A DNA stretch of 64,000 bases, taken from Halopelagius inordinatus (GTDB lineage: Archaea; Halobacteriota; Halobacteria; Halobacteriales; Haloferacaceae). The stretch lies in NCBI RefSeq assembly GCF_900113245.1, contig NZ_FOOQ01000004.1, forward strand, positions 62,001-126,000. Direction: 5' to 3'. This document shows positions 49,283-51,005 of this stretch, piece after piece; the first letter of the stretch is position 1, and each line of letters begins with the position of its first letter. Below the pieces are notes generated by a model. It was given only the letters and a program-made list of their open reading frames with translations, did no database searches and had not been told where the DNA came from. Position numbers and translations under genes: made by a program.

Positions 49283-50107
49283 CTACGAGCGGTCTGTCCG
49301 ACGCAGTCTGGTCGGCCCCCAGTAGAGGACGACGGACAGTGTCGTAAAAGCGAGGAGTCCGACGAGCGTGAGGCTCGCTGGATCGGAGTCGAGTATTGGA
49401 AACATTCCCTGAGACCAGTTGAACGAGGTGTGAAACAGAAGGGCGGGGAGAAGGCTGGCGTTCGTGTTGTTGTACACCCAGGTCATGAGCACGGACAGAA
49501 GCGTGATAGAGACCGCGAACCCGAGAAACGGGTTCTGGTAGTAGATCGTTTCGCTCGGGATGAAAAAGAGCGGAACGTGCCACACTGCCCAGACGACGCC
49601 GACAGCGACACCGCCGCCGAGTGCAGAGAATCGCTTCTGGAGGGGGTCGAGGAGGTAGCCACGCCAGCCGAACTCCTCTTGGAGTGGTCCGCCGAGAAAG
49701 AAGATGACGGCGAACGCGACTGGAAGGACGACCGGATTGCCCGCCCAGGGGAACGACAGCGAAGCGCCCGTGGCGAGGGCGACGCCGAGTGCGACGAAAA
49801 CGACGACAGGAGAGAGAAACAGCGCCGGGAGCAACCACCGTTTCGGGAAATCGAAGCGAACCGCTCGTCGGAGGAGGTATCGAGCCCCAGTCGTACCGTT
49901 CGCGTACGTTACGAGGACGAAGGCGGCGACGGTCGGGCCGAACGCGCCCAACTCGGGGAGAACAGGGACGTCCCCGACGAACCCCCGGGCCGCGAGCGCT
50001 TTCGGCCCCCAGAACAGCCACGACCATCCGAACGTCAGGAAGAGAAACGCACCGATCCGTGGGTTGTCACTCTGCTCGGGGTGCGGTGATGGTCGCTCGG
50101 CGCTCAT
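49283..50107 (-). CDS. CPBP/CAAX-type intramembrane metalloprotease
   Basis: A 274-residue polytopic membrane protein with about eight hydrophobic helices. The abortive-infection (Abi/CPBP) motifs are clear: LQEEFGWRGYLLD (EExxxR) near residue 150, WHVPLFFIP with the second His, and FHTSFNWSQG with the third His/Asn. In eukaryotes the family trims prenylated CAAX proteins; in prokaryotes members act in peptide pheromone processing, immunity to bacteriocin or protein maturation. The precise substrate is unknown. It sits immediately downstream (leftward) of the tRNA-Leu array. Confidence 0.87.
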   Translation of the reverse strand: MSAERPSPHPEQSDNPRIGAFLFLTFGWSWLFWGPKALAARGFVGDVPVLPELGAFGPTVAAFVLVTYANGTTGARYLLRRAVRFDFPKRWLLPALFLSPVVVFVALGVALATGASLSFPWAGNPVVLPVAFAVIFFLGGPLQEEFGWRGYLLDPLQKRFSALGGGVAVGVVWAVWHVPLFFIPSETIYYQNPFLGFAVSITLLSVLMTWVYNNTNASLLPALLFHTSFNWSQGMFPILDSDPASLTLVGLLAFTTLSVVLYWGPTRLRRTDRS

Positions 50108-50317: not shown

Positions 50318-50339
50318 TGCGCGGGACCGGATTCGAACC
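50318..50339 (-). repeat. tRNA-Leu 3'-end copy, distal
   Basis: The plus strand here reads TGCGCGGGACCGGATTCGAACC, identical over 22 bases to the 3' part of the tRNA-Leu gene (GGTTCGAATCCGG plus acceptor CCCGCGC and discriminator A on the tRNA strand). It also opens a dyad: CGGATTCGAA (50328-50337) and TTCGAATCCG (50368-50377) with a TCGCT-rich loop. Identical length to the next copy, so it was probably produced by the same process. Confidence 0.85.
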
Positions 50340-50418
50340 TCGGTCGCTCACTGCGTTCGCTCCCTGCTTCGAATCCGCTCGTATCGATGACTCTCCTCAC
50401 TGACGTTCGGAGAAGTCG

Positions 50419-50440
50419 TGCGCGGGACCGGATTCGAACC
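50419..50440 (-). repeat. tRNA-Leu 3'-end copy, proximal
   Basis: Same 22-base sequence as the tRNA 3' end, 89 bases past the mature tRNA end and 101 bases from the distal copy. It begins a larger inverted structure: CGGATTCG (50429-50436) with CGAATCCG (50474-50481), and inside it GAGGAC (50443-50448) with GTCCTC (50461-50466) around TTCGCTTCGCTC. Such exact tRNA 3' ends are the usual footprint of integrase attachment sites. Confidence 0.85.
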
Positions 50441-50497
50441 GCGAGGACTTCGCTTCGCTCGTCCTCTGGGCCGCGAATCCGGCCTGCTCCCTCACTC

Positions 50498-50520
50498 GTT
50501 TTCTCGCTCCGCTCGAAAAC
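50498..50520 (-). terminator. Hairpin after tRNA-Leu, possible terminator
   Basis: GTTTTC (50498-50503) and GAAAAC (50515-50520) pair around an 11-base loop TCGCTCCGCTC. Read on the tRNA strand it lies 9 bases past the tRNA 3' end and contains a TTTT run, so it may end the tRNA transcript. Confidence 0.35.
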
Positions 50521-50528
50521 TCGTTCAG

Positions 50529-50613
50529 TGCGCGGGACCGGATTCGAACCGGCGGACCCCTATGGGACAGCGTCCTAAGCGCTGCGCCGTTGGCCTAGCT
50601 TGGCTACCCGCGC
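50529..50613 (-). tRNA. tRNA-Leu (anticodon UAG)
   Basis: An 85-base class II tRNA. Acceptor stem GCGCGGG/CCCGCGC with discriminator A; D-arm region GCCAAGC-TAGGCC-AACGGC; anticodon stem CAGCG/CGCTG with loop CTTAGGA giving anticodon UAG for CUN leucine codons; long variable arm near GTCCCATAGGGGTCC as expected for Leu; T-arm GCCGG-TTCGAAT-CCGGT. No intron is visible. CCA is not encoded. Downstream, its 3' 22 bases are repeated twice, indicating a favoured integration site. It is divergent from the TFB-like gene at 50670. Confidence 0.95.
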
Positions 50614-50669: not shown

Positions 50670-51005
50670 ATGTGTGATGACGCGCAACGCACAGATATGT
50701 ACAGCGCCCGGGACCGAGTCGACAACGAAGAGTGGCTGACGCGCATCGAGACGGCCGCGGACAGACTCGAACTCGGGTCGGAAGCGCGGTCGTACGCCTC
50801 GGACATGTTCCTCTCGCAGATTCCGGCCTCCGACAGGTCCAAGCGCGCCATCGCCGCCGCCAGCCTCTACGCGGGCGCTCTCATCGCGGGCGAGGAACGC
50901 TCCCAGACCGAAGTCGCAGACGCCGCCGACGTGACTCGGCTGAGCATCCAAAAGCGCTGGAAGGACATCCTCGAAGACGCCGGGTTCCGCCCGCCGTCGT
51001 GGTGA
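50670..51005 (+). CDS. Single cyclin-fold TFB-like protein
   Basis: A 111-residue protein with one cyclin-like repeat and no zinc ribbon. Seen: RIETAADRLELGSEARSYAS, FLSQIPASDRSKRAIAAASLYAGALIAGE, and the recognition-like end TEVADAADVTRLSIQKRWKD, the pattern of the second cyclin repeat of transcription factor B (compare SDVASISEVTIRNRYKE in the full TFB at 59.8 kb). It could be a TFB-derived regulator that binds DNA near BRE sites without recruiting polymerase. ATG 50670 follows GGAGGG; another ATG at 50697 is possible. Divergent from tRNA-Leu. Confidence 0.75.
   Translation: MCDDAQRTDMYSARDRVDNEEWLTRIETAADRLELGSEARSYASDMFLSQIPASDRSKRAIAAASLYAGALIAGEERSQTEVADAADVTRLSIQKRWKDILEDAGFRPPSW

Follow-up and report, generated by a model that had tools for sequence, protein, structure and literature searches.

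Short units, each made of two hairpins and a copy of the host tRNA's own 3' tail, stand behind tRNA genes of Halopelagius inordinatus and its relatives. At the level of sequence, the anatomy of these units, their tRNA-specificity and the exact differences in their presence at tRNA 3' ends between congeners are established, and within the sample the unit family is confined to Halobacteriales. The units, of about 100 bp, hold no gene. We read them as non-autonomous mini-insertions at tRNA 3' ends that would be lost and reshuffled by recombination between tails, with SNJ2-type integrases as the likeliest enzyme, and we give this reading about an even chance (probability of roughly 0.5).

The tRNA-Leu(UAG) locus

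The window is the whole 64-kb stretch of H. inordinatus DNA that was analysed. Its tRNA-Leu(UAG) gene lies on the minus strand at 50528-50613 (start 50528 or 50529) and is found by ARAGORN and by the Rfam tRNA model (49.2 bits at 50529-50613). The copied segment is the 3' tail of the gene, tRNA positions ~52-73 (50529-50550, minus strand). This 22-base 3' end, TGCGCGGGACCGGATTCGAACC, occurs exactly three times in the 64 kb, at 50318, 50419 and 50529, with 0 mismatches, where 0.00 occurrences are expected from 100 shuffles. The exact search bears out a sequence-only reading of this DNA, which had claimed three perfect copies at these positions with spacings of 101 and 110. Since the gene is on the minus strand, both extra copies are downstream of its 3' end, and the order on the tRNA strand is the tRNA-Leu(UAG) gene, the 110-nt unit 1 and the 101-nt unit 2.

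Both units, all parts of which are given on the minus strand, are composed of hairpin A, hairpin B and a tail copy. Unit 1 occupies 50419-50528. The fold of its hairpin A (50490-50528) gives the helices CU/AC/GUUUUC/GC, with GA/GA mismatches between them and a GGA loop. The left arm of hairpin B, assigned from sequence and fold, is the T-loop antisense CCGGATTCG (50474-50482), and the fold places an inner hairpin, GAGGACGAGCGAAGCGAAGTCCTC, at 50443-50467; its loop recurs in a congener and in other genera. The tail copy of unit 1 (50419-50440) matches the gene at 22/22 positions. Unit 2 occupies 50318-50418 and comprises hairpin A (CTCCGAACGTCAGTGAGGAG, 50389-50418, from the fold), the left arm CGGATTCGAA (50368-50377, from the inverted repeat and the fold), loop A (CAGGGAGCGAACGCAGTGAGCGACCG, 50341-50366), which is common to units behind many other tRNA genes, and a tail copy (50318-50339) that again matches the gene at 22/22 positions. 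Both left arms of hairpin B, CCGGATTCG in unit 1 and CGGATTCGAA in unit 2, repeat the T-loop in inverted form and form base pairs with the first bases of the tail copy. The near-palindromes that had been described at two of the copies are both present, the outer unit having CGGATTCGAA/TTCGAATCCG and the inner unit CGGATTCG/CGAATCCG. Folded on the tRNA strand, the two units have energies of -50.3 and -42.1 kcal/mol (z of -2.8 and -2.9), and for each of them 1 of 200 shuffles folds equally well.

The window's clustered tandem-GA hairpins on the tRNA strand lie at 50346-50516, behind tRNA-Leu(UAG); the other motif matches in the 64-kb window are scattered singles. Among the Rfam families, nothing but tRNA scores above threshold at this locus. 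The neighbouring genes encode an Rce1-like protease (49283-50107), a TFIIB-repeat protein (50697-51005) and a cytidylyltransferase; none is an integrase, and the earlier statement that no integrase is adjacent stands. The TFIIB-repeat protein, encoded on the plus strand in the gene that adjoins the tRNA gene, is short (~100 aa) and has a single TFIIB repeat.

A family of units behind tRNA genes

In the H. inordinatus genome, 18 of the 45 tRNA genes have their own 3' end copied within 600 nt downstream (27 copies), and one of the 45 has it copied upstream, this one being a tandem tRNA-Arg pair. When tails were swapped between loci, 25 of 1976 tail/locus pairs matched (1.3%). Two other haloarchaea, of another genus, have tail copies at 22/43 and 23/45 tRNAs (45 and 36 copies), with 89/1800 and 68/1970 matches in the respective swap controls. 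Chance repetition as the origin of the tail copies is ruled out by the shuffles at tRNA-Leu(UAG), with 0 expected, together with the tail-swap control. A search of the rest of the genome with the tRNA-Leu(UAG) units finds that most of the better matches adjoin other tRNA genes. On contig C1 (433454-436933), ~400 nt separate two tandem tRNA-Arg(GCG) genes, and tail copies lie both in this interval and behind the pair; here an array was possibly duplicated together with its gene.

The unit, as hairpin A, hairpin B and tail copy, is usually 105-145 bp long and sits right after tRNA base 73. In its ladder-like hairpins, short helices alternate with tandem G.A mismatches beneath a GNA-type loop; in hairpin B the left arm repeats the host T-loop in inverted form, and the right arm is the start of the second copy of host tRNA positions ~52-73. 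The tail copies begin at the GG before the T-loop and finish at the discriminator base, without CCA. Copies of ~22 nt form the dominant class (class I; n = 97 over three genomes), and the stretch from tail end to tail end has a median of 132 nt in this class (interquartile range 105-145, range 69-344). In the minor class II (n = 11), the copy is limited to roughly the final 14 nt of the tRNA and stands behind a hairpin of opposite strand sense. Class II loci, three in H. inordinatus and two in Halogeometricum, have the GA strand opposite and a copy as long as an SNJ2-type att core.

The pairing of the hairpins was examined in motif scaffolds defined by the GA positions alone. In the 450 nt downstream of tRNA genes, on the tRNA strand, both helices are complementary in 118 of 238 such scaffolds, through many different dinucleotide pairs; the corresponding counts are 30/103 on the other strand, 2/74 upstream and 2/93 further downstream. 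The fit to the host tRNA does not depend on how the copies were found: among copies anchored on the hairpin alone, the host acceptor is matched at 10 or more of 13 positions in 42 of 51, and the control never exceeds 9. The left arm also agrees better with the T-stem of its own tRNA (3.41 of 5 positions) than with that of other tRNAs (2.62 of 5). Conservation of the units drops toward the acceptor end, the tail being less well preserved than the hairpin. Several unit copies behind tRNA-Pro and tRNA-Phe read GGTTCAC-AATCC, the T-loop being altered alike behind both tRNAs.

Taxonomic range

A 47-nt pattern of the unit 2 loop type, searched in 84,980 species, gives 16 matches, all in haloarchaea. 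Fifteen of the 16 lie 33-75 nt behind a tRNA gene on the same strand (Val, Asp, Lys, Ser, Arg, Leu), with arms that fit that tRNA. A hairpin pattern, looser than this loop pattern, is present in 26 of 28 genomes of Halobacteriales, compared with 3 of 119 other genomes of the phylum, and the reversed-pattern control gives 0. At tRNA-Leu(UAG) in other genera, most examined loci carry one or more copies with varied loops and some carry none, in a sample that, like that of Haloferax tRNA-Val below, was chosen by similarity to unit-bearing queries and from which no frequencies are taken.

The exact loop pattern has no match in viral contigs. A looser pattern gives 120 viral matches; those inspected are palindromic or tRNA-like and lack GA hairpins. 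By these two patterns, a virus as carrier of the units finds no support.

Units present, absent and shuffled between relatives

Closely related genomes differ by whole units. In one of two congeners the flank TGCGAGACACG directly adjoins the tRNA-Glu(CTC) gene, and in the other a 102-bp unit separates the two. Like pairs of empty and occupied sites, with units of 118 and 106 bp, exist at tRNA-Val(GAC) and tRNA-Glu(TTC), respectively. The junctions of these units coincide with the final base of the tRNA. One leading hairpin is common to the Glu(CTC) unit in one species and the Glu(TTC) unit in the other. A systematic pass finds unit indels at 8 of 43 orthologous tRNAs between congeners and a swapped order at Arg(CCT). 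At tRNA-Leu(UAG), the Halopelagius congener has one extra unit and carries the other two unit types in reverse order. At tRNA-Val(CAC) of Haloferax, two flanks are combined with two loops in each of the four possible ways, and one species is without a unit. Overall, roughly half of the tRNA genes have no unit, and at most of the unit-bearing tRNAs the units of congeners differ.

The related genomes examined do not share one identical three-copy arrangement, and insertions are found among them. One of two suggestions of the sequence-only reading, that a small palindromic element spreads beside tRNA genes, is well supported by a family that extends over the genome and the order, by the exact presence or absence of units at the tRNA 3' end and by loops common to different tRNAs.

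Integrase islands at the same tRNA genes

Integrase-bearing islands share the target of the units. At tRNA-Leu(UAG), islands of 10.4 kb (in a congener) and 14 kb (in another genus) lie between the tRNA and the array; in both, a Phage_integrase gene lies next to the tRNA and the att repeat measures ~60 nt. Islands between gene and copies are thus found in relatives; they stand beside the short tail copies, which are a separate thing. The integrase of the 10.4-kb island resembles that of HSTV-2-like tailed viruses (53%). At tRNA-Arg(TCG) in a third genome, a ~55-kb island with a 13-nt att lies between gene and unit, and its integrase has its best viral match in SNJ2 (44.6%). In H. inordinatus, at least two tRNAs beyond the 18 with nearby tail copies, Gly(TCC) and Ala(CGC), have units displaced from the gene by an island.

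The H. inordinatus genome encodes five SNJ2-type integrases. They share 38-53% identity with an SNJ2-type query, and tRNA tails of 16-31 nt lie next to them. This integrase family is restricted to Halobacteria (PMC8371274). As to length, class I copies have ~22 nt and class II copies ~14 nt; annotated SNJ2-type attP have 13-15 nt and the H. inordinatus islands 16-31 nt. The hairpins of the units were looked for in the attP regions of SNJ2, Humcor2, Halfgib1, Harhisp1 and LSV-48N, and none was found. HSTV2-type and SNJ2-type islands therefore share the target with the units and not the structure, and the islands displace the arrays. At tRNA-Gly(TCC), hairpins interrupt the distal att copy of a ~31-kb island at its T-loop, and a class I unit comes after this copy; it looks as if the att copies of islands, too, can receive units.

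Proposed mechanism and alternative explanations

In the mechanism that we propose, site-specific recombination would place a unit at the tRNA 3' end. The inserted unit would finish in a tail copy, leaving the gene whole and offering the fresh tail as the next possible target. Because each insertion would end in a tail copy, units would stack in tandem and could be lost or reshuffled by recombination between tails. Since the units hold no genes, an enzyme would be needed in trans, and the best candidates would be the SNJ2-type tyrosine integrases, which are confined to the same order and target these genes at the same end. The fit of the arms to each host tRNA may be maintained by template switching at the palindrome.

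Several points stand against this mechanism. Insertion at one end leads one to expect the newest unit nearest the gene; this order is seen in 10 arrays and the opposite in 4, a trend that is not significant (pooled p = 0.17). Exact presence or absence does not, by itself, tell gain from loss, and could also arise when an older unit is lost via 22-bp tail recombination or when alleles are exchanged. If unit and gene recombined by a crossover, the tail of the donor should be brought into the gene, yet the gene and the copy carry the host's own tail; target duplication or later correction would fit this as well. The lack of hairpins in the viral attP sites of the SNJ2 type also counts against the proposed mechanism, as does the lack of the exact loop pattern in viral contigs.

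Alternatively, the units may be functional RNA, namely a structured 3' trailer co-transcribed with the tRNA and acting in termination, processing or regulation, by analogy with the proposal for the RtT RNA of the E. coli tyrT operon. We regard this as possible and rather unlikely. The preference of complementary tandem-GA helices for the tRNA strand (118/238 compared with 30/103 on the other strand) speaks for it, as does the better folding of sense than of antisense RNA in 45 of 58 units; in Haloferax volcanii, transcripts have been mapped beyond one tRNA gene, tRNA-Pro, with two RNA 3' ends downstream of it (PMC7237163). However, a functional trailer agrees poorly with the absence of units from about half of the tRNA genes, with the differences between congeners at most unit-bearing tRNAs and with the opposite strand of approximately one-fifth of the hairpins. 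In the arms, 60 G.T and 45 A.C pairs are counted, not a clear G.T excess, and a larger excess in another count came largely from positions at arm ends or outside the arm; RNA pairing is thus not favoured over DNA palindromes. A purely local origin is in our view unlikely; here replication slippage and template switching at the T-arm palindrome would copy the tail and its flank, and homologous recombination would multiply and delete the copies, with no movement between loci. In its favour, the flanks behind gene and copy are often mutual repeats (tRNA-His, Met, Ser, Arg and Trp), template-switch correction would account for arms that match the host tRNA, and in Haloquadratum deletions mediated by repeats of 4-20 bp have been described (PMC3119063). 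Identical loop sequences nevertheless stand behind unrelated tRNAs in many genera, and one leading hairpin found behind Glu(CTC) and, in another species, behind Glu(TTC) needs transfer; moreover, slippage is not expected to give the regular two-hairpin anatomy.

The other suggestion of the sequence-only reading, that the copies are scars of past integrations, is unsupported as stated for ordinary elements. Decayed att sites of lost proviruses or islands have in their favour the integrase-bearing islands at tRNA-Leu(UAG) in two relatives and at other tRNAs in H. inordinatus. The att of these islands is ~60 nt (HSTV2 type) or 13 to ~30 nt (13-31 nt, SNJ2 type) without the hairpin pair, the SNJ2-type attP sites contain no such hairpins, and random decay would not leave a regular unit length, shared loops and paired helices, so that this origin is highly improbable. 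Ordinary provirus scars are rejected as the main account, because the att lengths and the attP structure differ. Integron cassettes offer a further model: they are tandem non-autonomous units with a variable centre, each ending in a site (attC) that can fold as an imperfect hairpin from one strand, at which IntI recombines them. The haloarchaeal units are, as a working analogy only, similarly tandem and non-autonomous, each ending in a recombination-like foldable site. The tRNA genes would then be platforms for an integron-like system, with the units as cassettes inserted, excised and reordered by host or viral tyrosine integrases, hairpin B as the site folded from one DNA strand and the tRNA 3' end as the anchor. 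In contrast to integrons, the units come without an integron integrase and without a reading frame, and we consider this model distinctly unlikely.

Comparison with known systems

The SNJ2-type islands and pleolipovirus proviruses resemble the units in targeting the tRNA 3' end, restoring the gene and leaving a direct repeat of the tRNA end. They differ in being kilobase elements with an integrase gene, an att core of usually 13-16 nt and an attP without hairpin units. The MITEs, SMRs and PATEs of Haloquadratum, as far as the available part of their description goes (PMC3119063), are likewise short non-coding mobile repeats with palindromes; unlike the units, they owe their definition in that account to terminal inverted repeats or to palindromes near the ends, are not associated with tRNA genes and lack the 22-bp duplication of a tRNA tail. 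Judged as MITEs, the units have a 22-bp target duplication, and their inverted repeat, formed by the T-loop arm and the tail, derives from the target and not from the end of a transposon. No description of the unit family was found in the open-access literature, and the family may be new. If the mini-insertion reading is true, a large share of the tRNA genes of one archaeal order would carry fast-changing tiny inserts that annotation has missed, and these would form a clean natural record of repeated insertion at tRNA ends as well as candidate non-autonomous partners of SNJ2-type integrases.

The nearest known arrangement is that of the RtT repeats (rttR, RF00391) in the tyrTV locus (tyrT operon) of E. 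coli, where tandem units also lie behind a tRNA gene and each ends in the tRNA 3' end. E. coli MG1655 has three such repeats, spaced at 178 bp and each finishing in AATCCTTCCCCCACCACCA, which is 19 nt from the 3' end of tRNA-Tyr; these repeats give the RtT RNA (PMC4986893). The haloarchaeal units differ in being shorter, with an inverted T-loop arm and a 22-nt copy without CCA, and in standing behind about half of all tRNA genes, variably between species. The RtT model of Rfam has hits in 0 of 21 Halobacteriales genomes and no match at the tRNA-Leu(UAG) locus down to E = 10, whereas the E. coli MG1655 control is positive with four matches of 133-137 bits. We thus class the archaeal units as a variant of tRNA-tail repeats and not as RtT. 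If the likeness holds, it provides a way to ask whether bacterial and archaeal tRNA-tail repeats share one mechanism, and whether such repeats act as RNA. The tyrTV repeats, like the units, contain hairpins, some of them in GA-mismatch style. Within 1284800-1288500 of E. coli MG1655, the tyrTV repeats contain GAGCGCCAGCGAG, which is in the same tandem-GA style as the haloarchaeal units.
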